DNA of 41,752 bases, taken from positions 1 to 41,752 of IMG/VR virus record IMGVR_UViG_3300010885_025122. One strand, written 5' to 3'. The position numbers and the translations under genes were made by a program. Source of the stretch: a virus. The notes beneath the pieces were generated by a model. That model was not told where the DNA came from. It saw only the letters and a program-made list of their open reading frames with translations, and ran no database searches. Of this stretch, positions 23,528 to 40,590 are shown piece after piece; the first letter of the stretch is position 1, and each line of letters starts with the position of its first letter.

Positions 23528-23787
23528 TTCTCACTCTCCTTGAATTTTTGAAAGTACCGATCAATCTTTACGCCGCTATACTCAGCGCACGAAGCCACCT
23601 CTTCACTAGTTGTTGCGTTAAAGATAAATCTGAATTGAGATTGATTATACCTAAGCGCCTCTTCCGCAGAAGCTAGGCGGGTGCGGAGACAGGGTATGCA
23701 GTTAATCCATTCGCCACTGACTACGTGATCAGCGTGATATTTTCTTTCGATTTCTAAACATTTATCTAGCAAAGGTGAATCACTCAT
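23524..23787 (-). CDS. Hypothetical small helical protein
   Basis: No family recognised for this 87-residue protein. It has a helical start (LDKCLEIERKYHADH), C-x2-C at about residues 30-33 (CIPC) and a coiled-coil-like segment after it (RTRLASAEEALRYNQ). It is joined by ATGA overlaps to both neighbours, so the three genes from 24242 to 23291 are translated as a coupled set. Confidence 0.55.
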   Translation of the reverse strand: MSDSPLLDKCLEIERKYHADHVVSGEWINCIPCLRTRLASAEEALRYNQSQFRFIFNATTSEEVASCAEYSGVKIDRYFQKFKESEK

Positions 23788-24242: not shown

Positions 24243-24409
24243 ATTTCGTCCGTTATTAGTGAAACTTCCAAAAGCATATAGGACTCATCCTTTGTTTTAA
24301 TCCATCCAAGCATTTCCACGTTGCAAAAAAGTACAAAGATGCCGTCATAGAATGCGTCGTAATATACCACTTCAAGGAACCTCATATGCTTCGCTTTTTC
24401 TTCGCCCAT
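24239..24409 (-). CDS. Small 56-residue early protein
   Basis: A short gene between the SNF2 helicase and the coiled-coil gene. GAGGAG lies eight to nine bases before the ATG at 24409, and the stop overlaps the next ATG as ATGA. The product begins MGEEKAKHMRFLEVVYYDAF and is rich in aromatic and acidic residues, with one Cys in the middle. The strong ribosome site and coupling support it as real. Function unknown. Confidence 0.6.
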   Translation of the reverse strand: MGEEKAKHMRFLEVVYYDAFYDGIFVLFCNVEMLGWIKTKDESYMLLEVSLITDEI

Positions 24410-26346: not shown

Positions 26347-26608
26347 TTGCTTGCCCTTTGTTTAGAGTTTCAAGTTCTTGTTTCATTGTTTTGTAGAGGT
26401 CACTTAGCGACATATTTTCTTCTTGTGCAAACTTTTCTGCGGTAATTTCAAAGTCCGTAATAAGTGCTGCGACATAGTCCAAGCACTCTTGCTGCGTCAA
26501 CTTACGTCCCGACTCTGCGTGATACCGAATTACCCACTCTGTCAACGGTCCCCAGTTATCAGTCAACCACCACTCCAACATTGTCTTAAATGATGGCCCG
26601 GTATTCAT
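26339..26608 (-). CDS. Small helical early protein
   Basis: An 89-residue protein rich in Glu, Leu and Thr, predicted as three to four helices (EWVIRYHAESGRKLTQQE, LDYVAALITDFEITAEKF). No family recognised. It overlaps its upstream neighbour by four bases (ATGA) and its downstream neighbour by eight, so its synthesis is tied to the chain of replication genes. Confidence 0.58.
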   Translation of the reverse strand: MNTGPSFKTMLEWWLTDNWGPLTEWVIRYHAESGRKLTQQECLDYVAALITDFEITAEKFAQEENMSLSDLYKTMKQELETLNKGQAND

Positions 26609-27119: not shown

Positions 27120-28003
27120 AACATATCCTTTTCTTCATCAAACGATGCCTTGGTCATAACCTTAATTTCGTTCGTAGTTGTAGCTTCGCTGTAACACTTC
27201 CCATGGCACTGTGAGAAGTATGGGCATGGCTTGAAGTAGCTGAAGCATGACTCCAAGTTTTGCACTGGTGCTTCGCCGTTAGTAATTTGTGCCGCACGAT
27301 TTTGAATAAGCTCAAAGCGTTTCCACGTTTGCTCAATTGCCATAATCTGTACGGGGATTATGACGTCATAAGACTCTACAGAGCCCTTCTCCACCATTCG
27401 GCGAGCGAACTCTGCAAGCGTCTCCCCTTCCTTGATGCCAGACTTTGTCTTTGTGGTAACTCTGTAACGGCATCCCAAGAACAACTCAGGATCCAATCCT
27501 AAGTGTGGTGCCATCAACATAGCGAAATGGGCATACAAATTGAGCTGCTGATCTTTAGGCAATGTGGCAACTTTCTGAGATTGATCAAATCGTGCAGCAG
27601 TTTTTAAGTCCCCGATCCACCAGCCCCCGAAGTTATCCTTTAAGATAACGTCAATAAAGCCAACAAAGATCGGAGACTCTAATTTCTGTTCACACACAAC
27701 TACCGACAGCCCTGAAGCTTTGTGCATCTTCATGTAAGACAGCGCCATAGCAGCGACCAACGGAGCTTCTTCTGGCACATTGAACTCCTCGCACTTTGCC
27801 TGGATTTCAGCAGAGAACTTAGCGGGAGTGTGAAACTGCCCGTGTCCATTGTCTTCAAGGTATCCGTGGAACGCTTTACCAATGCCTAAAGCGTCGCTGT
27901 CCTCATAGTCTGCATCATGAGGAACTTTAGCAACCTTGTGATAGAAGTAACGCTGTTCACAGGACTGCACTAACTTCATAGAGCTGTAGGATAATTGTGT
28001 CAT
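27116..28003 (-). CDS. Cas4/RecB-like PD-(D/E)XK exonuclease with Fe-S-type cysteines
   Basis: The 295-residue protein begins LSYSSMKLVQSCEQRYFY, with the first Cys at 15. The nuclease core has Asp118 in VGFIDVI and D132-x-K134 in IGDLKTA, the PD-(D/E)XK motif. The C-terminal Cys set C253, C260, C266 and C270 (in CFSYFKPC and PYFSQCHGKC) with Cys15 matches the Cas4/AddB layout that holds a 4Fe-4S cluster. Such phage enzymes resect DNA ends for recombination-linked replication. It lies between the candidate ssDNA-binding protein and coupled small genes, supporting that role. Confidence 0.85.
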   Translation of the reverse strand: MTQLSYSSMKLVQSCEQRYFYHKVAKVPHDADYEDSDALGIGKAFHGYLEDNGHGQFHTPAKFSAEIQAKCEEFNVPEEAPLVAAMALSYMKMHKASGLSVVVCEQKLESPIFVGFIDVILKDNFGGWWIGDLKTAARFDQSQKVATLPKDQQLNLYAHFAMLMAPHLGLDPELFLGCRYRVTTKTKSGIKEGETLAEFARRMVEKGSVESYDVIIPVQIMAIEQTWKRFELIQNRAAQITNGEAPVQNLESCFSYFKPCPYFSQCHGKCYSEATTTNEIKVMTKASFDEEKDML

Positions 28004-28007
28004 GTGA

Positions 28008-28430
28008 TTAAACCAAGTCGTCGTTAGCGTCGGCTTGTGGTGCTACTGGAGTAGAGCCAGCTTTTTGGATGAAGAAGTCCATGTCGTGACATGCTTTGCC
28101 CTTCCATTTACCAGTCTCAACTACAGCTTTACCATTGTACTCGACGCCCATGATGTCGCCGATAGAAACACCACCGACTTGAGTGATCTTGTACTGAAGA
28201 CCACCAGCAGAGTTAAGGGTGAACAAAGATCCAACCGCAGGCTGCTCTGATGTTTTTGCGAACATTGCTTCTGTGACTTGGAGAACGTAGGCAGGCTTGC
28301 CGAATTTGTCAGAGGAAATCTGCACCAGCTTCCCCGCAACTTGATCGCCAGCATCCCAATCATCATACTTTCTGAATGTAGATTTACCGCCAACCTGAAC
28401 ATACTTACCTGAACCAAAGATTCCCGACAT
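28008..28430 (-). CDS. Candidate single-stranded DNA-binding protein
   Basis: A 140-residue protein located between polymerase and nuclease, the usual place of a phage SSB. It is beta-rich in the middle (KPAYVLQVTEAMF, GSLFTLNSAGGLQYKITQV), consistent with an OB fold. It ends in an acidic, disordered tail (PQADANDDLV) of the kind phage SSBs use to contact partners, although it lacks the PF tip. A GGAGAAA site precedes the ATG. The identification is by position, size and tail, and the fold needs a structure prediction. Confidence 0.62.
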   Translation of the reverse strand: MSGIFGSGKYVQVGGKSTFRKYDDWDAGDQVAGKLVQISSDKFGKPAYVLQVTEAMFAKTSEQPAVGSLFTLNSAGGLQYKITQVGGVSIGDIMGVEYNGKAVVETGKWKGKACHDMDFFIQKAGSTPVAPQADANDDLV

Positions 28431-28478
28431 AGAATTTCTCCATAGAATTAAGAGCGTAATTGCCCTTGAATTTATAAT

Positions 28479-30482
28479 TTAAAGTAGATCGTTTTCACTT
28501 GCCCGACTTAAAGAAAAGTATTGCTTGAATCTTTTATAGTCATCAATACTTCTTCCGTCAACGTGTACTTTCTGCCGTAAGACTTCCATACCCTTCGGCG
28601 TCTTGATCGTATCGTCAACATCCGGATAATCTAAAGACCAAGTATCCGCCTCTAATCTACAATTTGCTCTAGCTTTACGATTATCGGGAACATAGAATCG
28701 GAACGCTCTGTCCATTGCTTCACAAAGCTTATCAATCGCTGCATATTTCCCCGAGTCGTATTCAATATAAATTGCATCGTGTAGGGTGTAGATAACATCA
28801 AGCCCTGCGTCTTGGGCGAACTCAACAGCCTTTCGCATGATGCTACTACCCCATCCTTGGATTGGCATATTAGAAACGGATCGCATATTAGGATTGTCGC
28901 CGAACATGCACCATCCACAGGGTAATTGTAGATAACGGTCACTTTCGTATCTGGTAGCAATTTCCTCCCGATAGCCTTGAAGATATGGGTATGTAGCGTC
29001 GAATAGGTCGACAAGTGCTTGAGCTTCATTTTCAGTATGTTCCTTTCCAGTGTCGTTGGTAAGTTTGCGGGCAAGCCCGACTTTGCTCATGAGATATGAG
29101 AGGCCAAGGATAGTAGACTTACATAAATCTCTTTCAAATTTGTGGCTTGCTTTGGTGGCATCTTTTGGAGCAATTCCGATCTGTTTAGCAAACGCAAGAT
29201 AGACGTCTCCGGACTCGTACGCTTTAAGCATTGCTTCGTCCTGAGATGCCAGAGCTGAAAGTAGAAACTCTTGACTGCTATAATCGACACCAGCAATGGC
29301 CCGTCCAGGTCTTGCTTGAATGAGACTACGGATCCACGCAGCTTTAAGAGGTATAAATCCGGTAGCTGACGGTTGAGATCGTCCAGATTGTGCGCCATAT
29401 ATTCCAAAGTAAGGTCGAACACGTCCATCACTTCCGACGGAATCCCAGAATGACTTTGTCTTTGCCCCTTCTTTTCTTGGCATGAATCCATTTAACGACT
29501 GCTTTAGTTTGAAATAGCGCACCATCTGAGCGCCGAAATTACCCCTTGGATAATTGTGCTTGAAGTCAAAGAACTTTGTCCAAACATCCACAGACAACGA
29601 TAGCTCTTTTTTCTTCCCTGTCGCCCCACCATCCGTTAAGTCCCAAGTGTCCGCCATAGGCTGCTGTGCTATCCACTGGCGGATTGGCTTGGTGTTCATG
29701 ATGAATAGGGACTTCTTGATGTCCCAGCGGAATGGGACGATGTCCGGGAATTGATCGTTGATGTCAGACATACACTCATGCAGCATACGACTGACTGAGT
29801 CAGAGAAGTTACGGGTGGAGTCGACATCTAGCGGATAGCCCAGATCCACCATAATACTAGTACGAGCAGCGTACTGTCCTCTGAGTAGCATGTGTTCATG
29901 GAGCTTCCCGGAATCCAAATACTCCTTGGGGAACTTTGTCTGGTACTTCTTAATCATAGCGGCAAATAGTGCCTTCAAGTGAGTCACATCGGAGGCACAG
30001 TATTCGAGAATCTCCCGCTTATGCTCCTCAGAGAACTCCGCTGGATTGCTAATGATAAGCTTCCGCATCTCTGCTTTGCGGTCAGTGTCGACTTTAACTT
30101 TCAATAGACGGAATAATGCACCAGCAAGTGAGTAGTCAGGAGCGCCACTAAACTGTGTCACTCTGCCGCTAAGGTGATCTCCATACATCAAGTCGGCATT
30201 GTGGTTGAGGAGCTGACGCCATTCTAGGTAAAGGCATATCCATTGGAACTCCCGAGGATCTAAGCCTAAAGCGTGAAAGTAGCGGGCTTCCGACTCTACG
30301 GAAAAAGACACAAAGACGTGGCCCGCATCCCGCAAAGCTTCCATCCTCGCTTTGGTAGCAATCCGCTCTCCAAGCTCTTTATGGTGCCAAGCTTGCTCTC
30401 CATCCCAACACAAGCACACTGGATTAACTCGCGGTTCACTTGTCTGATTGAACTCCGCATCTAAAAATACAAACTTAATCAT
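28479..30482 (-). CDS. Family A DNA polymerase with 3'-5' exonuclease domain
   Basis: The 667-residue enzyme should replicate the phage genome. The N-terminal exonuclease domain opens with FVFLDAEFN (Asp8, Glu10, Exo I). The polymerase domain has motif A VDYSSQE (Asp400), motif B DLCKSTILGLSY (Lys455, with Tyr in the usual place) and motif C TLHDAIYI (His568-Asp569). In many family A enzymes motif C is HDE; Ala here is common in phage members. The size and architecture resemble T7-like polymerases. It overlaps a 57-residue gene by four bases. No thioredoxin-binding insertion is obvious. Confidence 0.93.
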   Translation of the reverse strand: MIKFVFLDAEFNQTSEPRVNPVCLCWDGEQAWHHKELGERIATKARMEALRDAGHVFVSFSVESEARYFHALGLDPREFQWICLYLEWRQLLNHNADLMYGDHLSGRVTQFSGAPDYSLAGALFRLLKVKVDTDRKAEMRKLIISNPAEFSEEHKREILEYCASDVTHLKALFAAMIKKYQTKFPKEYLDSGKLHEHMLLRGQYAARTSIMVDLGYPLDVDSTRNFSDSVSRMLHECMSDINDQFPDIVPFRWDIKKSLFIMNTKPIRQWIAQQPMADTWDLTDGGATGKKKELSLSVDVWTKFFDFKHNYPRGNFGAQMVRYFKLKQSLNGFMPRKEGAKTKSFWDSVGSDGRVRPYFGIYGAQSGRSQPSATGFIPLKAAWIRSLIQARPGRAIAGVDYSSQEFLLSALASQDEAMLKAYESGDVYLAFAKQIGIAPKDATKASHKFERDLCKSTILGLSYLMSKVGLARKLTNDTGKEHTENEAQALVDLFDATYPYLQGYREEIATRYESDRYLQLPCGWCMFGDNPNMRSVSNMPIQGWGSSIMRKAVEFAQDAGLDVIYTLHDAIYIEYDSGKYAAIDKLCEAMDRAFRFYVPDNRKARANCRLEADTWSLDYPDVDDTIKTPKGMEVLRQKVHVDGRSIDDYKRFKQYFSLSRASENDLL

Positions 30483-30652
30483 GGCAACTTGACATTACGG
30501 AGGTTAAGTAAATCTTTTATCTCCTCGAACTTATCCGACTGCTCTTTAGTCGGTTCTCCTAATGTGACGACAACCTTGAGAAGTTTATACATCTGCAAAA
30601 GTCTTTTGGTCGAAGTATAGCTGAAGGGCTCGATCTTCTTCGTCTTGGTCAT
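30479..30652 (-). CDS. 57-residue protein between helicase and polymerase
   Basis: A small gene starts four bases inside the helicase end and its stop overlaps the polymerase start as ATGA. The product begins MTKTKKIEPFSYTSTKRLLQ, is basic at the N-terminus and helical after. The exact overlaps with both neighbours argue that it is translated. It could help couple helicase and polymerase, but no family is recognised. Confidence 0.6.
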   Translation of the reverse strand: MTKTKKIEPFSYTSTKRLLQMYKLLKVVVTLGEPTKEQSDKFEEIKDLLNLRNVKLP

Positions 30653-32178
30653 AGCAAGTCTCCATAGAAGTTTGAAGTAGAAGTGGAATTGTCGGTAGCA
30701 TCGGGTAGATAGGCTTCTGACGGGTAAAGTGTCTGCGACCCACTCTCCTCCACCAGTCGTCCCAATTTGTCAGTACCTTCATGTAAGTATGACTCCAAGA
30801 AATCGTTGATCTTCTGAGGTTTAACTGGGAAGCGACCATTGTCCGCTCTGGCCTTGTAGAGTGTACGAGCTTCTCTGATGTCATACTGATCTTTCTCTCT
30901 CGAAGTCAGCATGTCGACAATTACTCTCTCCCATTCAGTCAATGAGGTGTAGACTAAACGATAAAAGTGCTTGCCCTTGTAGCAAGTGAAAGCGTCTTGA
31001 TTTGGTTGCTTGGCATGATAGAAGACGTAATAGCCAAATTGCTTTTGAAACTCTGGCTGCTGGGTAAGCTTAAGGAATTGGTCGATTCTTTTCTGCCCCC
31101 AAGCATCTCGGAGTGTGACGGTGTTCATATCCATAACAGAGAAGCGACGATCATCCCAAAACACTCTCATGTCCATAATGTCGTTATTGCTGATGGCGAA
31201 TGAATTGTAAGTGGTGATGACTTTATCAGCATCAACCCCCTTACGCTCAATGGCCTGACGGGCGTTAATGTAACGCTTAAGTTTGCTCTGCTTTGTATCA
31301 GTGTCGACTCGCACTTCGTCTAACAATACGAGACGCCCCTTATCTAGTGCAGCGTTGAAATCCGATGTGAGCATCGACTCAGGAGAAATCTTAAAGTTAT
31401 CCTGCCCAACCAATGCCTGCAAAAGCGTCTCTACCAAGATCCCTTTACCAAGTCCTTTCTTACCATTCAGGACTAAGTACGTCTCAGCACGGCCCACCAG
31501 TGCTTCGTGCATCCATCCCCATACAAAATCCCTCGCCGCTTTGTCCGGAAATACATGCTCCATAAACTCATGAACGATGTTGGGCAGCGATACATCTTCC
31601 GGTTGTGTCGTATGATGGCCATCAACGTCGGCATCCATCCAGGGAGGAGGAGCGTAGAGATTAAATTGTGTCAGGGACATACCCTCAAACGCAATAGGCT
31701 TGACTGCTGAGATGTCGTAAGGGTCGAAGGAGAAGATGGAAGGAGTCGATTTCTCAAAAAACTGCTGCTTGGCTTCCGGAGGTAGAATTTTCTTCAATGC
31801 ACTGGGGAGAATTTTAGAAATCTGCCGGATAGATACATTGTAAAGGTGTTCCTTGTCGGTTGTCATATCGAGAACGTAGCGAAGCTTCGACAATTCAATA
31901 GTCCCTTCAGGGAGATTTTCCTCGTCATTAAAGTCGATTTTATTGGCTTCACGCAGTATCTTCCTAGTTTCTAGTGCCAAGTCCCCCACAAACTTTTTAG
32001 GCTTTTCAATAGCATCCAACAGGCAATCATATTTTTGAAGTAAAGGGTTAGTTATGTGACCGATAACCGCAGCAGAAAACACTCCTGCCATGCTTTGCTC
32101 ATCTAACTTCATCCCTCCCCGAGCTGATGTCGTAATGCGGCCCGATTCGACTAAATGTTTCGCTAGGTCTTGTATCAT
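30649..32178 (-). CDS. D5/DUF5906-type primase-helicase
   Basis: The 509-residue protein has Walker A GKKGLGKG (residues 239-246, Lys245; Gly replaces the usual Ser/Thr, as often in this family), Walker B LVLLDE (Asp287-Glu288) and a following arginine-rich SF3-like region. The first 230 residues are helical and lack an obvious primase DxD motif, so primase activity is uncertain. AGGACA lies before the ATG. It is the first gene of the polymerase block and follows the small-RNA region at 32235-32360. Confidence 0.8.
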   Translation of the reverse strand: MIQDLAKHLVESGRITTSARGGMKLDEQSMAGVFSAAVIGHITNPLLQKYDCLLDAIEKPKKFVGDLALETRKILREANKIDFNDEENLPEGTIELSKLRYVLDMTTDKEHLYNVSIRQISKILPSALKKILPPEAKQQFFEKSTPSIFSFDPYDISAVKPIAFEGMSLTQFNLYAPPPWMDADVDGHHTTQPEDVSLPNIVHEFMEHVFPDKAARDFVWGWMHEALVGRAETYLVLNGKKGLGKGILVETLLQALVGQDNFKISPESMLTSDFNAALDKGRLVLLDEVRVDTDTKQSKLKRYINARQAIERKGVDADKVITTYNSFAISNNDIMDMRVFWDDRRFSVMDMNTVTLRDAWGQKRIDQFLKLTQQPEFQKQFGYYVFYHAKQPNQDAFTCYKGKHFYRLVYTSLTEWERVIVDMLTSREKDQYDIREARTLYKARADNGRFPVKPQKINDFLESYLHEGTDKLGRLVEESGSQTLYPSEAYLPDATDNSTSTSNFYGDLL

Positions 32179-32232
32179 GTGTGTTGTCCTGTGAAAATGT
32201 CTTGCCCGGTGTAGGTTCTACCTTTAGATATA

Positions 32233-32246
32233 TGTTGTCAACAACA
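32233..32246. promoter_or_regulatory. Operator-like inverted repeat over the small-RNA promoter
   Basis: TGTTGT-CA-ACAACA forms a 6-bp inverted repeat that covers the -35 box at 32235-32240. A dimeric repressor bound here would block the promoter. On the minus strand the same bases read TTGACA, but I found no -10 box to make a leftward promoter. Confidence 0.45.
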
Positions 32247-32264
32247 CAAAATCTAAACTAGAAT
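32235..32264 (+). promoter_or_regulatory. Near-consensus sigma70 promoter of a candidate small RNA
   Basis: TTGTCA (32235-32240) and TAGAAT (32259-32264) are each one base from consensus with an 18-base spacer. It reads rightward, against the leftward genes. The predicted start, about seven bases after the -10 box, is the first G of the 11-bp stem at 32272. Confidence 0.65.
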
Positions 32265-32271
32265 GATAGCT

Positions 32272-32360
32272 GAGAGACGGTGCGGCCGGGGTTTAAAAGC
32301 CCCAATTCCTCTGAAATGCTTGCCCGCATCCACGATACCCACCGTCTCTCTTTCTTTTTA
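32272..32360 (+). ncRNA. Candidate phage small regulatory RNA
   Basis: GAGAGACGGTG (32272-32282) pairs perfectly with CACCGTCTCTC (32340-32350), closing 57 bases. Inside are a GGGG/CCCC hairpin (32288-32303) and an ATGC/GCAT hairpin (32316-32329), separated by AATTCCTCTGAA. TTCCTC there is complementary to the GAGGA-type ribosome sites used in this genome. TTTCTTTTT follows the stem, so the closing stem also acts as a terminator. The promoter at 32235-32264 would start transcription at the stem's first base. The RNA would be about 85 nucleotides and antisense to a leftward read-through transcript. No open reading frame is apparent. No known RNA family recognised. Confidence 0.6.
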
Positions 32361-32444
32361 CTCCGCCAACACCCACACCGCGCCAACAAGTCCACCACCG
32401 ATCAAATAAAAAGCAATCAAAACAAAAAGTAAAAAGTCTTTCAT
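32358..32444 (-). CDS. 28-residue single-pass membrane peptide
   Basis: The start at 32444 overlaps the upstream stop as ATGA and gives MKDFLLFVLIAFYLIGGGLV plus eight more residues. It is one hydrophobic helix with a GGG kink and an acidic end. The gene's 3' end overlaps the U-rich end of the candidate small RNA on the other strand. Coupling supports translation, the size is tiny, and a role such as membrane effector or toxin-like peptide is only a possibility. Confidence 0.5.
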   Translation of the reverse strand: MKDFLLFVLIAFYLIGGGLVGAVWVLAE

Positions 32445-32737
32445 AGCTTATCCTTTAAGCGTTTGTGTTTATTCATGACGCGGACATAGTCCTCTGACGT
32501 GTATCCGTAATCATCCAAGAAATCATTGAACGACTTGTTCGCCACTTCATCAAAAAAGAAAATCAATAAGGCATGAAGCAGTAGAAAATCTTGCTTGCTG
32601 ATCTTCTCATCGAGTGCTTCCAATGATTCAGGTTGCAAACGGTTGGCTTTCTTTGCTGCAACACGAGCTTCCTCTGCTTTCTGTTTGCTCGATAGATACT
32701 TCTTCCAATCAAGCTTATCAAGATTGTCGATAGTCAT
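32441..32737 (-). CDS. Hypothetical early protein
   Basis: No family recognised. The 98-residue product has a Lys/Ala-rich helical start (KYLSSKQKAEEARVAAKKAN), then an acidic helical part with a hydrophobic core (FLLLHALLIFFFDEVANKSF). It overlaps both neighbours by four bases. The hydrophobic core is short and flanked by charges, so I do not call it a membrane protein. Confidence 0.58.
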   Translation of the reverse strand: MTIDNLDKLDWKKYLSSKQKAEEARVAAKKANRLQPESLEALDEKISKQDFLLLHALLIFFFDEVANKSFNDFLDDYGYTSEDYVRVMNKHKRLKDKL

Positions 32738-33216
32738 ATCTGCACAAAGCTCCCGTAATTTTGCCCTTTATCATGGTCGGACTGGTCCCACCTGAAGTCT
32801 GGCGTGTAACCATTGCTAGTTATCGCTTCAGGCTTTGGCGACATAGCAATGACTAGCACCCGCATGGCCTCCATCCTATCCAAAATCGTAACATGGGCAG
32901 AAATCCAATGTGAATCATTAACCAGGATGAAGTTGCGCATCATGGTCGGAGTCACTGACTTGGCAAAAGCGCCACGTTCTAACAGCCACTTGCGCTTGTG
33001 GTTGTACACGCGCGCGATGGCGATAAGTGACTCCTCGACTTTCGGTGTCGACTTAATGAACGGTGGCAAGGTCTTATCAATCTTCATAATGCCCTTCCAG
33101 TCCATGCGCTCCTGAGAGAGAAACTTGCATAGGGAATAGCACACAGTCCGGTTATGGTGAACGTGTTGCGCGAGTAATTCGGAGTCAACGGTTAGCTTAT
33201 TCTGTCTCTGATACAT
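32734..33216 (-). CDS. Hypothetical early protein
   Basis: I chose the ATG at 33216, seven bases after GAGGAG, over a TTG 15 bases upstream. The 160-residue product starts MYQRQNKLTVDSELLAQHVH. It has a basic helical first half with several His and Lys, and a mixed second half ending GQNYGSFVQI. It could bind nucleic acid, but there is no recognised domain. Its start lies inside the end of a small zinc-binding gene. Confidence 0.6.
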   Translation of the reverse strand: MYQRQNKLTVDSELLAQHVHHNRTVCYSLCKFLSQERMDWKGIMKIDKTLPPFIKSTPKVEESLIAIARVYNHKRKWLLERGAFAKSVTPTMMRNFILVNDSHWISAHVTILDRMEAMRVLVIAMSPKPEAITSNGYTPDFRWDQSDHDKGQNYGSFVQI

Positions 33217-33343
33217 TTTCTGTCTCCTCAAAATGGTCTTGGTAACATCTTAAACACATAGTTTTGCCATCGTCGCGTTGAAGTAATGGGGAGTAGGCTC
33301 CACATTGGTCACACGTTAGCTTGCGCCAAATGAACGCTGTCAT
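33197..33343 (-). CDS. 48-residue zinc-ribbon protein
   Basis: The product begins MTAFIWRKLTCDQCGAYSPL and carries C11-x2-C14 and C30-x2-C33 (CDQC and CLRC), a zinc ribbon with a 15-residue loop, then an acidic tail. Its start overlaps the upstream stop as ATGA. Its end overlaps the 160-residue gene in another frame. The regular Cys spacing supports it as real. Confidence 0.62.
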   Translation of the reverse strand: MTAFIWRKLTCDQCGAYSPLLQRDDGKTMCLRCYQDHFEETENVSETE

Positions 33344-33531
33344 ATCAACTCGCCTTGCATGTCCGGCAATGACTCGCTGATAGACTGCAACAATAAGCGC
33401 ATGTGGATTACTTCTAACGGGTAATCATCCGCGCGTACGTCACACCATTGATCTATAATGCCTTCCAACGTCTTCCAGTGCTTAAGCTTGAGAGTCAATG
33501 TCAGGCGAATTTCTTTATTTTCTATTTTCAT
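33340..33531 (-). CDS. Hypothetical small early protein
   Basis: The 63-residue product is rich in Leu, Ile, Glu and Lys (KEIRLTLTLKLKHWKTLEGI), with alternating residues suggesting a beta strand, then helices. It is coupled by ATGA overlaps to both neighbours. No family recognised. Confidence 0.55.
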   Translation of the reverse strand: MKIENKEIRLTLTLKLKHWKTLEGIIDQWCDVRADDYPLEVIHMRLLLQSISESLPDMQGELI

Positions 33532-33701
33532 TCCTGCGACTCCTGTAAATAGTTTGATAACCAGTCAACCAAGTCCGCGCCATTGACGTCTGACTCTCCG
33601 TCAATCAAGCCTGGAAACGCGCTAACCAAGCCTTCGCGCAATTGTGAAATACCGCGAAGGAATTTTAACTCACCAACATATTGTTCTATTTCATAGTTCA
33701 T
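33528..33701 (-). CDS. 57-residue early protein
   Basis: A small gene with AGGAA seven bases before the ATG at 33701; its stop overlaps the next start as ATGA. The product begins MNYEIEQYVGELKFLRGISQ and ends in an acidic, aromatic segment. Helical and soluble. No family recognised. Confidence 0.58.
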   Translation of the reverse strand: MNYEIEQYVGELKFLRGISQLREGLVSAFPGLIDGESDVNGADLVDWLSNYLQESQE

Positions 33702-33713
33702 TTTGTGTTCCTT

Positions 33714-34046
33714 CTAAAATGGAATGTCATCAAACGCAAAGTCGCGCTCCGACAACGTCTTAATTTGTTTCTCTAGGCGCTTGGCTTTCCATGCCGTCGT
33801 GTCCAGTAATTGCCTTGCCGCTTCATCCACCGCTGCAAAGTAGCAGTCAATGTGAAACGTCTGATTACGCTCTGTAGGCATCCCGCTATTAAGCGTGGCG
33901 CGTATGACTTGCGCCCCTACCGGGATTTTAACGCGACCTCCGGGCGATGCCCCACTGTAATCAACACAGCCTGCGCATCGGGCGTCACGCTTAAGGGTTA
34001 GATACTTCGATGAGTGGTGCGGGTGTATTGCGGTGTAGGGGTTCAT
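33714..34046 (-). CDS. Zinc-finger-like protein ending in an SSB-type FDDIPF tail
   Basis: The 110-residue product has C24-x2-C27 (CAGC) and, 37 residues later, H65-x2-C68 (FHIDCYF), the C-C-H-C layout of PARP-type zinc fingers. VKIPVGAQVIRA precedes the second pair as in that family. A helical Lys/Arg region follows, and the protein ends SERDFAFDDIPF. DDIPF is the conserved tip of bacterial SSB, the docking peptide for RecO, RecQ, PriA, exonuclease I and others. It lies well upstream of the candidate SSB, which lacks this tip. Either the phage uses it to recruit host repair and replication proteins, or it competes with host SSB. The tail is visible; the binding is inferred. Confidence 0.65.
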   Translation of the reverse strand: MNPYTAIHPHHSSKYLTLKRDARCAGCVDYSGASPGGRVKIPVGAQVIRATLNSGMPTERNQTFHIDCYFAAVDEAARQLLDTTAWKAKRLEKQIKTLSERDFAFDDIPF

Positions 34047-34237
34047 TTTGCAAACCTCGCTTTTAATCCTTTCGGATTTTTCTTTATTTGTTGGTCGACT
34101 AAGCCAAGATACATGACGTCTCTAACTTCCAGCACGTCCAATAGCGACTTGACCGCTGCTTTGCATGTCTTATGCTGCAAGGTGGAGGCGTAATAGTCGC
34201 CGTTGAAAAATAGGTCGATCTTTTTGTAGAGTTTCAT
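34043..34237 (-). CDS. Small basic early protein
   Basis: The 64-residue product is strongly basic (ends KKNPKGLKARFAK) with an N-terminal aromatic beta-like stretch (KLYKKIDLFFNGDYYAST) reminiscent of small phage double-psi or double-strand binding proteins. No family recognised. It overlaps the next gene by four bases. Confidence 0.55.
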   Translation of the reverse strand: MKLYKKIDLFFNGDYYASTLQHKTCKAAVKSLLDVLEVRDVMYLGLVDQQIKKNPKGLKARFAK

Positions 34238-34238
34238 T

Positions 34239-34454
34239 TTAGTATTTCTCCAATGGTTGACCGGCGTTAATAAATTTCAGTTCTTTTTTAGTCATCTTGC
34301 GGCAAGGTGTTCCGCTTACTCGCCGGGTGTAGCCATGACAAGCGCAGTAAATAAAGCCGCGCTGATCTATGTGAGTTACTTCTTCAATGCAATTTTCGAT
34401 CATTTGACACTTAATAATAAAAGGGCCGTTGCCCTTAGCTTGCAATGATTCCAT
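34239..34454 (-). CDS. Small Cys-rich early protein
   Basis: The 71-residue product has Cys at 16, 22, 37, 39 and 51 and His at 40, in the arrangement FIYCACHGYTRR...PCRKM, likely a small zinc site. A basic C-terminal part (KMTKKELKFINAG) follows. Similar Cys-His patterns occur in many phage early proteins. Function unknown. Confidence 0.58.
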   Translation of the reverse strand: MESLQAKGNGPFIIKCQMIENCIEEVTHIDQRGFIYCACHGYTRRVSGTPCRKMTKKELKFINAGQPLEKY

Positions 34455-34456
34455 GT

Positions 34457-34666
34457 TTATACCCTCTCCAAAATTGATTCTTTAATTTCTTTCAAAATGT
34501 CAGACATAACTCTCTGATTTTCATCCTCACTCAGTTTAAATTTAATCGCGCATGTCCCGACGTGTTCAGCGATAGCATCTATAACTAACATCAATCCTTG
34601 GCGGTTAATTATCTCGGCAATGCTTTTAAGGTCTTTTGATACATTGTCGTAATCCCCGTATCTCAT
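34457..34666 (-). CDS. Hypothetical small helical early protein
   Basis: This 69-residue protein is helical and mildly acidic, with a hydrophobic middle (IINRQGLMLVIDAIAEHVG). No family recognised. It follows the next upstream gene after two bases. Confidence 0.53.
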   Translation of the reverse strand: MRYGDYDNVSKDLKSIAEIINRQGLMLVIDAIAEHVGTCAIKFKLSEDENQRVMSDILKEIKESILERV

Positions 34667-34668
34667 AA

Positions 34669-34956
34669 TTACACCTTACCTAAGATACATGCGCGTAGCG
34701 TGCGGATTTCATCGGTGTATGATTGTCCGGCGACATAGGTCCACCGTGGGCCGTCATACTTTCCGAGACGGTCAAAAATACCGTGGCTATCCATCGCGGA
34801 CATACCATAGCGTAGGAGTGAATAGAGTCGGTTGCGTGTTTTCTCACGACATCCATGTCCAACGATAGCCACGATTTCATCAATGTCTTGCGCGGTCAGT
34901 TCCGGACGTTGTTCACGTGGAAAGATTAAGTAATCGCGGAATGTTACGGGTTTCAT
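34669..34956 (-). CDS. Hypothetical early protein
   Basis: A 95-residue protein with a basic and aromatic make-up (KPVTFRDYLIFPREQRPEL, NRLYSLLRYGM). It is predicted helical, with a conserved-looking end (TYVAGQSYTDEIRTL) that could be a nucleic-acid-binding surface. No family recognised. GGAG stands before the ATG. Confidence 0.57.
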   Translation of the reverse strand: MKPVTFRDYLIFPREQRPELTAQDIDEIVAIVGHGCREKTRNRLYSLLRYGMSAMDSHGIFDRLGKYDGPRWTYVAGQSYTDEIRTLRACILGKV

Positions 34957-34978
34957 GTTAAAAGTCTCCGGTGGTAGT

Positions 34979-35410
<432 letters not shown>

Positions 35411-35432
35411 AAAATTTTCTCTCCAGTGTAGT

Positions 35433-35708
35433 TTAAAAAGTAAGTTCGTTTTCTATGATCGGTGGAACAGTAAAGCCAATAGGCGGTGGATAGCTGTAAA
35501 CTTCAAAATCGAATTGACGGAGTTTTACTAACGCTACTTCCATCTCATGCGCGTCTTGCTTGGTGTAGCGCCGATTTAATTCAGCAGCGACTTCCTCAAG
35601 CGCATGATCGTAAGCAGTCCCGGCGTCGGTAACACCTTCATTCGCCAAGATTTCTTCTAACTTTGCCGTCGCGAATTTCTTGTATGCCCGTGACGTTGTC
35701 TTTTTCAT
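35433..35708 (-). CDS. Hypothetical small early protein
   Basis: The 91-residue product has a basic start (KKTTSRAYKKFATAKLEEIL) and a helical body. Its end is beta-like and Pro-rich (VYSYPPPIGFTVPPII-type). No family recognised. It overlaps the first gene of the unit by four bases (ATGA). Confidence 0.56.
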   Translation of the reverse strand: MKKTTSRAYKKFATAKLEEILANEGVTDAGTAYDHALEEVAAELNRRYTKQDAHEMEVALVKLRQFDFEVYSYPPPIGFTVPPIIENELTF

Positions 35709-35860
35709 TGTGGCTTTCTCTCGATGTAGTATTCTTCGCGGTCAGTGTCGTACGAGTCACCTAGAGTTGTGCATAGAAAACTTTCGGCATCGTCGAATGA
35801 CTTAAATGATTTGCCGTAGAAGCAAGTGTTGCCGGCCCAATCTCGGATGATGAATTTCAT
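35705..35860 (-). CDS. First leftward gene, 51-residue protein
   Basis: GGAGACTACAC precedes the ATG at 35860; the stop overlaps the next start as ATGA. The product begins MKFIIRDWAGNTCFYGKSFK and has an acidic, aromatic end. As the first gene after the leftward promoter it may be made very early. Function unknown. Confidence 0.6.
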   Translation of the reverse strand: MKFIIRDWAGNTCFYGKSFKSFDDAESFLCTTLGDSYDTDREEYYIERKPQ

Positions 35861-35895
35861 GTGTAGTCTCCTCTGTTAAGTGTTGTTGCTTGCCC

Positions 35896-35923
35896 TGCCA
35901 TGTTACCTGATCGGTAAATGGCA
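35896..35923 (-). other. Leader hairpin at the 5' end of the leftward transcript
   Basis: TGCCAT-TTACC (35896-35907, with G at 35902 bulged) pairs with GGTAA-ATGGCA (35913-35923), an 11-bp stem with a 5-base loop. The predicted start of leftward transcription falls at about 35924, so the RNA begins with this hairpin. It could protect the 5' end from decay or be an operator. Confidence 0.5.
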
Positions 35924-35930
35924 AGGAAAA

Positions 35931-35958
35931 CTTATCACGATACGGTTAAGCACGTCAA
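35931..35958 (-). promoter_or_regulatory. Leftward early promoter
   Basis: On the minus strand TTGACG (35958-35953) and GATAAG (35936-35931) stand 16 bases apart, preceded by TG at the -10 box. It is the only good candidate in front of the leftward string of genes that begins at 35860. Confidence 0.5.
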
Positions 35959-36110
35959 GTTGCTTTCTACCCCACATGCTTAATGAAATCCGGGGGTAGA
36001 TTGTAGTTAGGGGGTAAGTAGTGGAAATAAGGCTAAATATAAAGATTATGCGCTATGCGTCAACACGGTGTGTCATGATGTTTTGCTGCTAATTTTTTGT
36101 GTTGCTCATT

Positions 36111-36138
36111 ACACACATACACACCTCTGTATGTGTGT
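36111..36138. repeat. 10-bp perfect inverted repeat
   Basis: ACACACATAC (36111-36120) and GTATGTGTGT (36129-36138) flank an 8-base loop. TT follows directly, then GAAAAT. It could be an operator, or a weak terminator for rightward transcripts. It lies in the gene-free control region. Confidence 0.65.
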
Positions 36139-36186
36139 TTTGAAAATAAAATAGTTGTTACCAAACAGACTCACCAAGTCACGCAT

Positions 36187-36213
36187 ATATATTTATCTCA
36201 AATATAAATATAT
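36187..36213. repeat. AT-rich 10-bp inverted repeat
   Basis: ATATATTTAT (36187-36196) and ATAAATATAT (36204-36213) flank CTCAAAT. It is an easily melted AT-rich palindrome next to the iteron array, the usual neighbourhood of an unwinding element. Part of the 1.1-kb control region. Confidence 0.6.
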
Positions 36214-36278
36214 GTATTAGTACTAGGGATAAAATTATGAGCTATGGCAAAATAGCAAATTGCGGCTTATTAAGTTAA

Positions 36279-36548
36279 CTGCGTATATTTCTAGTTAACT
36301 TTGATAATACGTATATTCCGGGACAAATAACTTAGCTGCGTATATTCTGTGAACATGAGACCACAACTACTGCGTATATTCCAAAAAGCAATTGAGCTGC
36401 GTATATTACCGGAAAGGGCAGCGGCCATGATGGGATGTTATTTAGTACGATGGAGATGCAATGCCGAGGAGCGTCGCATGTGGCATTATGTGGAGCGGTA
36501 TGTCACGGAGTCATGGCGACATGATAGACAATGATGATGCGTATATTC
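36279..36548. repeat. Iteron-like array of TGCGTATATT
   Basis: GCGTATATT or a one-base variant starts at 36281, 36309 (ACGTATATT), 36338, 36372, 36399 and 36539. The first five are 27-34 bases apart, near three helical turns, and most are preceded by CT. An inverted near-copy (GTATATACGCA) lies at 36658-36668. Such spaced direct repeats are typical of replication origins or cooperative regulator sites. The array lies between the divergent transcription units. Confidence 0.7.
36355..36534 (+). CDS. Doubtful small gene within the iteron region
   Basis: An open frame of 59 residues begins at ATG 36355 (MRPQLLRIFQKAIELRILPE). It is Arg-rich and aromatic, with a helix-like start; the repeats themselves encode its LRIF and LRIL. 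There is no ribosome site upstream. It may be real and overlap the repeats, or be chance. No other gene is seen in 35861-36976. Confidence 0.28.
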   Translation: MRPQLLRIFQKAIELRILPERAAAMMGCYLVRWRCNAEERRMWHYVERYVTESWRHDRQ

Positions 36549-36672
36549 TTGCCTTGGCAGGGCAGCGAAGCTGACGTGCTTAGGTGCAGGGTGTAATGGT
36601 TGGATGGTGTCGGAGTGCAGGGTACCCCCCACAAGGTAAATGATGTGGAGTAGAGGGGTATATACGCAACAT

Positions 36673-36758
36673 AAATTTTTTCCCATATCAAAATATCATT
36701 CCCGACAATTCCACTTCGACATACAAATTTTTTCCTATATCAAAATATCATTCCCGAC
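36673..36758. repeat. Two 34-bp direct repeats
   Basis: AAATTTTTTCC[C/T]ATATCAAAA... ending CATTCCCGAC occurs at 36673-36706 and 36725-36758, 52 bases apart, with one mismatch (C or T). Weaker similarity continues on both sides. The spacing is about five helical turns. The TATCAT hexamer inside resembles a -10 box and also occurs in the promoter at 36782-36810. They are probably binding sites or paired promoters for the rightward genes. Confidence 0.75.
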
Positions 36759-36781
36759 TACTTCACTCAGGCAGTTAAGTA

Positions 36782-36810
36782 TTGTGGCTAGAAAACTTAA
36801 CACCTATCAT
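36782..36810 (+). promoter_or_regulatory. Promoter reading into the tRNA-like element
   Basis: TTGTGG (36782-36787) and TATCAT (36805-36810) are separated by 17 bases. The -10 box is one base from consensus, while the -35 box is weaker. Six bases later is the first G of the tRNA-like element (36817). It would serve that RNA and probably the terminase genes downstream. Confidence 0.45.
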
Positions 36811-36816
36811 ATACCT

Positions 36817-36889
36817 GTGGCGGTGTAAGCAACTGGTAAGCCGGGATATTGTTATCCCTATATGTGAGTTCGAATCTCACGACCGCCAC
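36817..36889 (+). ncRNA. tRNA-like element with irregular D-arm and anticodon loop
   Basis: An 8-bp acceptor-type stem (GTGGCGGT with ACCGCCAC) and a perfect T-arm (GTGAG-TTCGAAT-CTCAC, 36864-36880) are present. Between them is a 5-bp GGGAT/ATCCC stem (36843-36858). Taken as a tRNA from 36819, position 8 would be T and the discriminator A, with no encoded CCA. However, the anticodon-type loop has six bases (ATTGTT) instead of seven, the D-arm (AGCAACTGGTAAGCC) is short, and G7-G66 do not pair. It is either a degenerate tRNA, a shortened tRNA or a tRNA mimic. The anticodon cannot be read with confidence. Confidence 0.55.
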
Positions 36890-36976
36890 TTTCTATTTAC
36901 TAGACCGACCTATCAAATTCACTAGACGCCTACCTACTCTGGGTATTAGGATACCTATTATGGGAGCGGCAGCGAC

Positions 36977-37501
36977 ATGGGCAAAGACTTAATCGTAATA
37001 CCGGAAGAAGACATCCTCCAACGCATAGTGGCCGGAATGACCGAAGCCCATGTATGTGAAGCACTCAACATTCCAATGATGTCCTTTATCCTTCACATGA
37101 CCCAAAACCCACAGTTCTCTGCTCAAGTTGATTCAGCTAGGGCAATGCGGGCAGAACGATGGGTAGGTAATGTAGTCAATCTTGTTACAACGGCCGAAGG
37201 CCGACCAATCATCCATGACAAAGATGACGTCCCTGGCGTTAAGCTAGCGGTCGACACTTATAAATGGTTGGCGAAAGTAGATAACCCTGAGCGGTATGGC
37301 GATAAGCAATCCATCGAAACCCACAATACCAATGTCCTAGAGATCAAAGGACTGTCGCCACAAGAGGCACTAGACATCTTGCGCTCCGACCCCTTCGCCC
37401 CCGCAATCCCGGCAGAATATACTAATGTTACTGAAGGTTATGGAAAACCGATAACTTCTGAGGAATCCACAAATGAGGATGAAGATGAGGATATGCTTTA
37501 A
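36977..37501 (+). CDS. Candidate terminase small subunit
   Basis: The 174-residue protein lies two genes upstream of the large terminase. Its N-terminal part (EDILQRIVAGMTEAHVCEAL, then a second helix) resembles the helix-turn-helix of phage small terminases, which recognise the packaging site. The middle has a typical helical oligomerisation segment (AVDTYKWLAKVDNPERYG). The end is a very acidic tail (ESTNEDEDEDML). GGAG is present in the leader. The next gene starts inside its last codons in another frame. No database comparison was possible, but position and pattern agree. Confidence 0.68.
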   Translation: MGKDLIVIPEEDILQRIVAGMTEAHVCEALNIPMMSFILHMTQNPQFSAQVDSARAMRAERWVGNVVNLVTTAEGRPIIHDKDDVPGVKLAVDTYKWLAKVDNPERYGDKQSIETHNTNVLEIKGLSPQEALDILRSDPFAPAIPAEYTNVTEGYGKPITSEESTNEDEDEDML

Positions 37502-37931: not shown

Positions 37932-38128
37932 GCGACGAACCAAAGAAGCGTGGACGCCCTGCAAAGAGCGACTTGCCAAAAGAGATCCGTGAGAACATCG
38001 TGGAGTCAAACCTCCCGGAGCATGTACTCGACGCTATCGAAGAAGCTGTAAGCCAAAAAGAAGAAGAGGATAAGCCAAAAAAGCTTGTTGGCCGTAGCCC
38101 GATTGATGGGTCAGACGTTTGGATGTAA
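37928..38128 (+). CDS. Small charged protein with AT-hook-like motif
   Basis: The 66-residue product has KKRGRPAK near the N-terminus, a typical AT-hook that binds the minor groove of AT-rich DNA, followed by acidic helices. AAAGGAG precedes the ATG, which overlaps the peptidase stop. TerL starts at a TTG within its last codons. It may help terminase recognise or hold DNA, but no family is recognised. Confidence 0.55.
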   Translation: MSDEPKKRGRPAKSDLPKEIRENIVESNLPEHVLDAIEEAVSQKEEEDKPKKLVGRSPIDGSDVWM

Positions 38129-40590
38129 ACAATTCCAGGATCCAGCTAACGGCAAAGGTTATCACCGACCTTGCCGCGGGGTGGACGCCGCATGAAGGAC
38201 AGATAGAAGTCCTCCGCCCACTACTGTATGGTGGGAAAAAGCGCATTTTCGTAGAGTGCGGACGTAAGTTTGGTAAGCAAATAGCTTTAAGTGAGGACAT
38301 CCTTACCCCCTCAGGATTTATTAAGTACGGAGACCTCAAGGAAGGCGACATTGTCTACGATGAGCGGGGACAACCTCAAAAAGTTATTGGGCTATCTCCA
38401 ATCAACTACAGCCCTGAAGCGTACCGCGTAACATTCTGCAATGGAGAGTCCGTTGTTGCCTGTGCGGAACACAGGTGGCTGACCCACACCAAGCTTAATA
38501 GGAAGTCGGAGTGTCGGTTTCCAGGGTCACAGACTCCGACGATAAAGACCACGAAAGAGATTAAAGAAAGTCTGATGCACGGCAAGGAGTTCAATCACTC
38601 TATTCCGTACACTAAGCCAGTATGGATTCCAGAGTCCCAACTTCCTGTTGACCCCTATATATTAGGCGTGTGGTTAGGGGATGGGTCTAAGGATTCAAGC
38701 CGATTTACTTCAGTAGACGCAGAGATTGTAGAATACATAAACAAACAATACCCGGTCACAAGCTACACCCACAAAGAGCACGGCGCCCGCGGGTTGGTGC
38801 AAGCCCTCCGTCCACTAGGCGTTGTTGACAATAAGCACGTCCCCGCCGAATACCTTATGGCTAGCATTGAGCAACGCTTGGCGCTTCTACAAGGATTAAT
38901 GGATACTGACGGCACAATCAATAAATCCGGCAACCATTGTTGCTTTGACAATACGAATAAATCTCTAGCTGACGCGGTGTTCTGCTTAGTCGCGTCCCTT
39001 GGGATGAAGCCAATTAGGAAAGAAAGATGGGGGAAGCTATACGGAGTGCAGCACAAACTGTGCTATCGAATTTGCTTCCAACCCCTCATGCCCGTGTTTA
39101 GATTGAGTAGAAAGTTGGGCAAAATATCAATGCCCAAAAAGACATTGCACCACACAATTGTTTCGGTAGAGCCAGTAGAGTCGGAGCCAATGCGCTGCAT
39201 TTCGGTAACGGGAAACAGCCACCTTTACCTTATTGGGAAAAGTCTGATCCCCACCCACAATACGGAGTCCGTCCTGTACCTACTGCATCGTGAAGCCATG
39301 CAAAATCCCAATCACCACTACTACTTCATCGCACCAACCATCAAGCAAGCTCGAGAACTTATCTGGGAAAACAATCGACTCAAAGGATTTCTCACACCGG
39401 AGGTCACGGCTCGGTATGTCTACAAAGACTATGAACAAGATATGCGCCGGGTGTTTAACAATGGGTCATTCATCAAGCTAGATGGTGCGGATAACTGGCC
39501 ATCATACGCCGGTATCAACCCACATGGACTTGCTTACGACGAATTTAAGGACATTGACCCCAGATTCTATGACGTCATGGAGCCGAACTTGGCATCTAAG
39601 GACGCATGGATGTACATTGTCGGCACTCCACCCGATTCTGAGGAAAACCTATTCTGCCGACTTGCAGAAGAATTTAAGTCTGACGATCAATCCGACTATT
39701 TCAACATGCCGACTTGGACCAATCCCCACATTCCTGCAAAATGGCTGGATCGTCAGAAAGAACGTCTAATCTCCCGTGGCGATCATCACGTATGGCTGAG
39801 AGAGTATGAGGCAAAGCGCGTACGCGGTGGCGCCCGTTCTATCTTCCCTATGTTCGAGCCAGCAAAGACCAACCCAGTCAGCGGGGAAGTGTTGGAGTTT
39901 ACCCGACACGTACGCCCGGAAGGGGAACTTGAAGCCGAGATACGCCGACATCAGCGCGACTACGAGTTCTACCAAATCTTCGACCCTGGTTCTGTCGTGT
40001 GTTTTGCAGTTATCTTTGCTGCGGTCCACAAATACTCAAAGAAAGTCGTTATCCTTGACGAGATATATGAGAAGGACAAGGCGAAAACCTCAACCAAGCA
40101 GATATACCCACGCGCCATGCAGATGTATGCTAAGTTTGGAGTGCCCGGTCACAAAGTCCACAAGGTATTCGACTACGCTGCCCAGTGGTTCGCCAATGAG
40201 GTAGCAGCGGAATACGGCGAAGGACTTATGCCGTGTACGAAGGACTTGAACGATAAGGAAAATAAGCTATCGGTCATCAAAGACTTCATGGTTGCCAGTC
40301 TTTTTGAAGTTGGGCAGAAGTGTAAGTGGACTGTATGGGAGATAAGTAACTACATTGTCGACGATAACGGCAAGATCCCCAAGAAGAATGACCACATCAT
40401 CGACGCCCTTCGCTACCTATTTAATGCCGCCAACCTCCGCACAACTCCGCGTGAGAGATATGTCCGCGACCCCGATAGTCGGATTTGGGTGCCGGAGCAT
40501 GATTCAGAGTTTGCAGATGAAGGACTAATTGGGTTAGACTTTTACCAAGATTTAGATGAAGATGAAGAAACAGAGGGCACATACGCATGA
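38119..40590 (+). CDS. Terminase large subunit (TerL) interrupted by an intein
   Basis: The precursor has 823 residues; after splicing 495 remain, normal for TerL. The ATPase Walker A is split: ECGRKFGK (46-53), then Thr382 onward (TESVLYLL). Walker B is LAYDEF (Asp474-Glu475). The nuclease domain has Asp622 in IFDPG, and a late DHIIDALRYL motif with Asp762. Translation must start at TTG 38119: an in-frame stop lies at 38104-38106 and no ATG occurs before the intein. It overlaps the preceding gene by ten bases. It translocates DNA into the prohead and cuts concatemers. Without splicing the P-loop would be broken, so splicing is needed for packaging. Confidence 0.93.
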   Translation: MDVNNSRIQLTAKVITDLAAGWTPHEGQIEVLRPLLYGGKKRIFVECGRKFGKQIALSEDILTPSGFIKYGDLKEGDIVYDERGQPQKVIGLSPINYSPEAYRVTFCNGESVVACAEHRWLTHTKLNRKSECRFPGSQTPTIKTTKEIKESLMHGKEFNHSIPYTKPVWIPESQLPVDPYILGVWLGDGSKDSSRFTSVDAEIVEYINKQYPVTSYTHKEHGARGLVQALRPLGVVDNKHVPAEYLMASIEQRLALLQGLMDTDGTINKSGNHCCFDNTNKSLADAVFCLVASLGMKPIRKERWGKLYGVQHKLCYRICFQPLMPVFRLSRKLGKISMPKKTLHHTIVSVEPVESEPMRCISVTGNSHLYLIGKSLIPTHNTESVLYLLHREAMQNPNHHYYFIAPTIKQARELIWENNRLKGFLTPEVTARYVYKDYEQDMRRVFNNGSFIKLDGADNWPSYAGINPHGLAYDEFKDIDPRFYDVMEPNLASKDAWMYIVGTPPDSEENLFCRLAEEFKSDDQSDYFNMPTWTNPHIPAKWLDRQKERLISRGDHHVWLREYEAKRVRGGARSIFPMFEPAKTNPVSGEVLEFTRHVRPEGELEAEIRRHQRDYEFYQIFDPGSVVCFAVIFAAVHKYSKKVVILDEIYEKDKAKTSTKQIYPRAMQMYAKFGVPGHKVHKVFDYAAQWFANEVAAEYGEGLMPCTKDLNDKENKLSVIKDFMVASLFEVGQKCKWTVWEISNYIVDDNGKIPKKNDHIIDALRYLFNAANLRTTPRERYVRDPDSRIWVPEHDSEFADEGLIGLDFYQDLDEDEETEGTYA
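38278..39261 (+). mobile_element. Class 3-type intein with LAGLIDADG endonuclease
   Basis: The 328-residue insert starts at Gln54 (GK-QIALSEDILTPSGF) and ends IPTHN381, followed by Thr382 (+1). Residue 1 is not Cys or Ser. Instead there are Trp120 in AEHRW (block B), Cys360 in MRCISV (block F) and Thr379 in THN (block G): the WCT set that defines class 3 inteins, where the block F Cys is the first nucleophile. Both endonuclease motifs are intact: ILGVWLGDG (181-189) and LLQGLMDTDG (256-265). It should therefore be able to home into intein-less terL genes. The host motif is the P-loop, the most conserved site in TerL. Confidence 0.92.

Follow-up and report, generated by a model that had tools for sequence, protein, structure and literature searches.

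Does the virus record IMGVR_UViG_3300010885_025122 carry a complete gene for a small RNA opposite its replication operon, as an earlier note made from the sequence had claimed, and on what might such an RNA act? The record, 41,752 bases long, was analyzed whole and is referred to below as the window. It comprises a plus-strand structural block, a minus-strand early and replication block at about 20.1-35.9 kb, and plus-strand terminase genes. The locus sits in a 262-bp gap (32179..32440) between two minus-strand early genes: a 98-aa ORF of unknown function on the upstream side (32441-32737) and a primase/helicase-like gene downstream (DUF5906, PHROG DNA primase; 30649..32178). In the gene list drawn up here, this gap is the second largest of the minus-strand block, after one of 498 bp. 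The predicted RNA faces this intercistronic gap of the primase operon and not a large gene.

Structure and rarity of the locus

A sigma-70-type promoter sequence, TTGTCA-18-TAGAAT (32235..32264, plus strand), was listed by a promoter scan with 10 of 12 matches. Its -35 box (TTGTCA, 32235-32240) and -10 box (TAGAAT, 32259-32264) each match at 5/6 positions and are separated by 18 nt, just as the earlier note had described. Over the -35 box lies an operator-like inverted repeat, TGTTGT-CA-ACAACA (32233..32246), which is enclosed by a larger imperfect palindrome (32223-32257) and is predicted to form a hairpin in minus-strand RNA. This repeat is the sole perfect copy in the window. Operator copies elsewhere in the window were considered and dropped, their number being at chance level (4 copies with up to two mismatches, 2.2 expected).

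Downstream of the promoter, fold prediction yields an RNA of ~87-88 nt (32272..32359, plus strand), arranged as a three-way junction that is closed by the terminator stem. The 5' arm of this stem, GAGAGACGGTG (32272..32282), pairs perfectly with the 3' arm (32340..32350; 11/11 paired, 57 nt between the arms), and two G-C pairs beyond a one-base bulge extend it further. The 3' arm is followed by the T tract of an intrinsic terminator, TTTCTTTTT (32351..32359), with 8 T among 9 bases. The 11-bp perfect stem with a T tail is as had been claimed, and the ends pair in the predicted fold; the predicted size is ~87-88 nt, where the earlier note gave about 85. A terminator scan, with loops limited to 3-8 nt, did not list the site. 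Within the junction, fold prediction places a first inner hairpin (GGGGUU-UAAA-AGCCCC, 32288..32303), a mostly unpaired linker (32304..32315) in which word matches mark an anti-Shine-Dalgarno sequence, UUCCUCUG, and a second inner hairpin (AUGC-UUGCCC-GCAU, 32316..32329), all on the plus strand. The loop and 5' stem bases of hairpin 2 are complementary to GGGCAAGCA; both the linker and the loop UUGCCC are largely unpaired in the predicted fold. The minimum free energy (MFE) is -34.0 kcal/mol (z -4.0), none of 200 shuffles was equally stable, and the MFE and centroid structures concur in the 11+2 pair closing helix and the two inner hairpins.

The opposite strand is not wholly noncoding, a point absent from the earlier note. 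A minus-strand ORF of 28 aa (MKDFLLFVLIAFYLIGGGLVGAVWVLAE; 32358..32444), with one hydrophobic stretch, is preceded by AAGGA, and its start overlaps the stop codon of the 98-aa ORF in an ATGA. Its own stop codon (32358-32360) falls in the complement of the T tract. The ORF has no match among relatives at E 0.001.

How rare is this arrangement? Defined strictly, as 11 or more Watson-Crick pairs with 7 or more T among the 9 bases that follow, the pattern has a single site in the window, and 150 dinucleotide shuffles yielded none. As controls we used 128 loci (1,101,650 bases), mostly unrelated viral stretches from a 14-mer scan with a few polymerase-bearing relatives. These contain nine stems of at least 10 pairs with a T tail, four of them in one locus, and no site at which a promoter is in register with stem and tail. 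This comparison favors the finding to some degree, because the real window exceeds the shuffles both in stems of at least 9 pairs (52, shuffle mean 32.2) and in promoter-like sites (23 with at least 9/12 matches at 28000-37000, 15.8 in shuffles). Four promoter sites reach 10/12, and a match of this quality is not rare by itself. A relaxed pattern (7 pairs, 6 T, and 8/12 promoter matches) is common, with 7 occurrences in the window, including the small-RNA site, and 51 in 576 kb of relatives. The claim thus rests on the strength of the single strict site.

The frequency of the loose pattern, the shortfall of stems in the shuffles, the lack of conservation, and, in one relative, a long-loop hairpin that resembles a terminator and directly follows an early gene (see below) would all fit chance, or a simple terminator that halts stray antisense transcripts without yielding a functional RNA. 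Set against this are the absence of the strict version from all shuffles and from 1.10 Mb of control sequence, and a promoter positioned exactly upstream. We regard such an origin as very improbable. Chance is a poor explanation for the transcription-unit anatomy, as the earlier note had argued from the register of start, stem, and terminator. The best reading of the sequence is that the locus is probably a complete, strand-specific small-RNA transcription unit.

Strand and relatives

Within the gap, only the plus strand has the T tract and a promoter at scan threshold, while no promoter was listed on the minus strand. The minus-strand RNA also folds well: the 261-nt leader of the primase gene reaches -85.7 kcal/mol (z -3.9) and its 95-nt core, the complement of the predicted RNA, -38.2 kcal/mol (z -3.9). 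These values could indicate that the functional structure is a folded leader of the primase mRNA, serving for processing or protein binding, with the plus-strand promoter and T tract being coincidental. The recurrence of GGGCAAGCA on minus-strand mRNAs, where it could be a protein site, is consistent with this. Fold strength does not discriminate between strands, however, because the two strands of any perfect inverted repeat necessarily both fold, and the promoter and T tract lie in register on the plus strand. We therefore consider a minus-strand structure quite unlikely.

No homologue of the RNA was found in 17 related records, in Rfam, or in phage or plasmid collections. The best Rfam match at the locus scores 14.7 bits, far under the gathering threshold, and a match to the C4-target family is likewise far below its own (10.4 bits, threshold 46.7). 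A search of viral contigs with the exact stem pattern gave nothing convincing. The 14-mer of the 5' arm occurs in at least 119 stretches, 19 of which, among the matches listed, have a loose match to the 3' arm; the two best of these 19 by eye (L111 and L116) form long stems that lack a T tail and were rejected. The linker 16-mer has six matches, with no flanking stem seen. Distant blastn against phages and plasmids returned only matches at E = 5, none of them to a lambdoid phage record.

A covariance model was built from one sequence entered twice, and an empty result from it is weak evidence of absence. Across 31 sources it retrieved itself and one match at E 5.3, and in 17 whole related records nothing. 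Among 127 further loci it gave eight stray matches (best E 0.10 and 0.16), which fall in loci that had been retrieved through an exact word of the RNA. Single-protein scans with the primase and the polymerase gave no convincing homologue of the RNA locus. Polymerase-motif scans gave 28 loci and two genome loci, the better of which has no primase match. A literature search on OOP, phage small RNAs, the P4 CI RNA, small RNAs of virulent phages, and DUF5906 returned no case of this RNA.

The collections searched contain no near relative of the phage. Four related genomes (G001, G017, G009, and G014) have structural genes in common and match the window at 39-41% in the large terminase, 55-57% in the capsid protein, and ~44-45% in the polymerase. 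Ahead of their primase genes, G001 and G017 have AT-rich sequence together with an ORF on the opposite strand that matches an HNH-like 115-aa gene of the window; in the window, this gene lies elsewhere and not in the 262-bp gap. No such RNA was found in these two gaps. A stem-plus-tail scan of 28 loci (L130-L157) gave 15 matches, none of them in the eight inspected gaps upstream of an identified primase. Two of the 51 relaxed-pattern matches in relatives were inspected. One, L194 676-759, overlaps minus-strand ORFs, folds at just -20.7, and was set aside. The other, in G017 (L161:1493-1566, minus strand), is a 74-nt hairpin with a 16-bp stem and a long apical region, followed by TCTTTTCT (z -5.4). 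A 210-aa minus-strand ORF ends just before it, and by its sequence it resembles a terminator with a long loop, here in a member of the same phage group.

Nested palindromes beside a primase/helicase gene might also act as DNA, as an origin hairpin or a single-strand initiation site. The AT-rich gaps that precede the primase in G001 and G017, the former with GGGAGC words repeated in both directions, fit such a replication element. Iteron-like GCTGCGTATATT repeats are instead located at 36271-36549, in AT-rich DNA near the GC-skew minimum at 35-36 kb, and the repeat listing has none of this kind at 32.2-32.4 kb. A replication element at the RNA locus is thus highly unlikely.

The region at 36271-36549, with its GCTGCGTATATT-like repeated words, lies between the divergent early and terminase blocks, and the skew minimum close to it is that of the cumulative curve. 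We regard it as a candidate origin of replication. The same region has an AT-rich 43-nt direct repeat (36673-36767; 91% identical, spacing 52).

Complementarity to early-gene starts

If the RNA is made, its unpaired segments could reach other messages. The reverse complement of 32303-32340 (38 nt) was compared with 58 gene start regions, from -60 to +20, in a test devised post hoc, after inspection of the sequence. Complementary words of at least 9 nt (9 to 11 nt) occur at five minus-strand genes and at no plus-strand gene. Shuffled segments average 0.26 minus-strand genes, and none of 1000 reaches five; natural minus-strand 38-mers average 0.39, and 4 of 2258 reach five. With 8-nt words, six minus-strand genes and one plus-strand gene are matched (minus-gene P 0.002 for shuffles and 0.010 for natural segments), and with 7-nt words, seven and two, numbers that do not clearly exceed expectation (P 0.10 and 0.23). 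Within the narrower region of -40 to +20, three minus-strand genes have 9-nt words (0/1000 shuffles; P 0.009 against natural segments) and four have 8-nt words (P 0.007 and 0.042), with no excess of 7-nt words (P 0.38 and 0.46). All words of at least 9 nt map to 32303-32326, that is, to the linker and hairpin 2. The sense sequence of the segment has no 9-nt match to the start regions.

The matches, all on the minus strand, are distributed over the early block. In the leader of the first early gene (start 35860; matches within 35869..35895), GGGCAAGCA lies at 35887-35895 (-35) and the Shine-Dalgarno sequence CAGAGGA at 35869-35875 (-15). In front of a 243-aa ORF (start 26346), GGGCAAGCA lies at -10 (26348..26356), directly upstream of the start codon. 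The gene starting at 23787 has its long match at -11, and those starting at 24409 and 22684 have theirs at -57 and -52, in each case inside the 3' end of the preceding gene. In addition, the primase leader contains CGGGCAAG at 32201-32208 (-30).

Three of the five long matches have one word in common, and so the recurrence of GGGCAAGCA may have a different cause, such as a protein site on minus-strand RNA. Among minus-strand 9-mers at 20-36 kb, GGGCAAGCA ranks first in number if a CTG-type repeat is set aside. Including the RNA's own, there are five copies, where 0.39 would be expected over both strands of the window. Its 7-mer core GGGCAAG occurs 15 times in the window (5.0 expected; 0/100 shuffles reach 15) and stays at the expected level in the related records counted, 8 of the 17 (28 vs 29.6 expected; pieces overlap by 500 bases).

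Duplex energies are less distinctive. The minimum energies are unexceptional, shuffles being as low in 12% of cases for linker plus hairpin 2, 6% for hairpin 2, 23% for the linker, and 56% for the last junction. The best target is the first early gene, both for linker plus hairpin 2 and for hairpin 2, and the primase leader ranks third. A two-word collinear test gave P 0.03, with the top score at gene 22684 and not at the first early gene. With rough opening costs, net pairing energy is favorable at all eight sites (-2.9 to -12.9 kcal/mol). At the primase, access to the Shine-Dalgarno sequence and AUG is unchanged in fold prediction when the antisense-bound region is made unpaired, and control of the primase start through leader refolding was dropped for this reason. 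The excess of long complementary words at early-gene starts is suggestive of targets and no stronger than that, because the test was post hoc and three matches have one word in common.

Known phage RNAs and a proposed mode of action

The OOP RNA of phage lambda is 77 nt long, similar in size to the predicted RNA. As described in two papers (PMC5869508, PMC3985674), it is a short antisense RNA that runs from pO against pR and the replication operon and ends at tO; 52 bases of oop overlap the sequence for the C-terminal part of cII, the hybrid is reported to be cleaved in an RNase III-dependent manner, and pO activity affects lambda replication, perhaps via convergent transcription. Compared with OOP as described there, the predicted RNA fits in its sequence anatomy: a putative promoter that faces the replication operon, a predicted hairpin terminator of its own, and placement before a replication gene. 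As in OOP, its sequence is complementary both to the end of the preceding gene and to the gap in front of the replication gene. Where oop covers 52 coding bases, the predicted RNA overlaps just part of the stop codon of the 28-aa ORF. It also differs in being multibranched with paired ends, in facing a primase/helicase-like gene rather than O, and in having possible targets in trans. Rfam gave no match to oop, a search at distant sensitivity matched no lambdoid phage record, and no cII-like gene was identified among the proteins scanned. In function, OOP appears to be the nearest RNA, and the present RNA would, by analogy, work like OOP without being a member of its family.

This analogy raises a simpler interpretation, in which the unit is purely cis-acting and OOP-like, the RNA or convergent transcription acts before the primase, and the GGGCAAGCA matches are incidental. 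Full complementarity to the intercistronic region and the reach of the RNA to the 28-aa ORF stop, much as OOP overlaps the end of cII, are consistent with it, as is the importance of convergent pO-pR transcription in lambda (PMC5869508, PMC3985674). It is at odds with the surplus of long complementary words found at the starts of other early genes, and with the predicted primase-start access, which bound antisense leaves unaltered. We consider an exclusively cis-acting unit somewhat unlikely.

A second precedent comes from a review table (PMC12197685), which lists lambda PreS, ~88 nt and trans-acting, and VP882 VpdS, ~50 nt, both Hfq-dependent or Hfq-binding and with effects that were studied. 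As tabulated there, PreS is of the same size as the predicted RNA. If expressed, the predicted RNA may likewise act in trans. In light of OOP (PMC5869508, PMC3985674) and PreS (PMC12197685), the novelty suggested for a phage RNA of this sort does not stand. Phage small RNAs of this size are already known, and the predicted RNA would be an orphan of a known kind.

Our preferred reading, to which we assign a probability of about one half, is that the small RNA regulates early genes in trans, by pairing with their leaders, and the primase operon in cis. Host RNA polymerase would start near 32271-32272 and stop at the T tract near 32359. The ends of the resulting ~87-nt RNA would pair, so that one stem serves as both terminator and stable core. 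This core would expose the linker, with UUCCUCUG, and the hairpin loop UUGCCC for pairing with Shine-Dalgarno and leader sequences of minus-strand mRNAs: those of the first early gene, the 243-aa gene, and the primase leader. Opposite the locus, the RNA would meet the intercistronic region of the primase operon, to which it is perfectly complementary. The likely effect would be that expression of early and replication genes is lowered or retimed, through ribosome blocking in trans and, as in lambda OOP, through RNase III cleavage or convergent transcription in cis.

A bolder extension of this reading, tentative and itself unlikely, is an RNA-based regulon in which the loop of the small RNA reads a dispersed nine-letter tag, GGGCAAGCA, together with Shine-Dalgarno sequences, in early and replication leaders. 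A single RNA would then turn down the early program as the RNA is produced. Tag and RNA would have co-evolved within this phage, given that the tag core is no more frequent than expected in relatives where no such RNA was detected. This tag-and-loop regulon is the part that could possibly be new. If the locus is transcribed, it would provide a small-RNA gene in a little-studied phage group, with one stem as core and terminator, along with a ready-made set of candidate targets. It would also represent an RNA against a replication operon outside the lambdoid phages, perhaps one that acts on several early genes.

Other RNAs offer more distant parallels. Plasmid RNAI and CopA, and the P4 CI and P1 C4 RNAs, are antisense to the leader of a replication gene and have exposed loops, as does the predicted RNA. 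Unlike in the plasmid counter-transcribed RNAs, predicted access to the primase start is unchanged on binding. A tRNA identity for the predicted RNA was considered and dropped. Elsewhere in the window, a tRNA-like cloverleaf (36819-36888, plus strand; Rfam tRNA 29.4 bits, gathering threshold 29) has good acceptor and T arms and an odd, short anticodon loop, and is followed by a T-rich stretch; neither ARAGORN nor the whole-window Rfam scan called it.

The packaging RNA of phi29 has paired ends and a three-way junction, as the predicted RNA does at about half the length. A phi29-type packaging RNA was dropped as an identity, as there is no Rfam match and the phage has both small and large terminase genes. 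The large terminase gene (38119-40590, plus strand) encodes 823 aa, compared with ~500 aa for the terminase ORFs of G001 and G009, and has LAGLIDADG and Hom_end matches inside, which suggests a possible intein or homing-endonuclease insertion.
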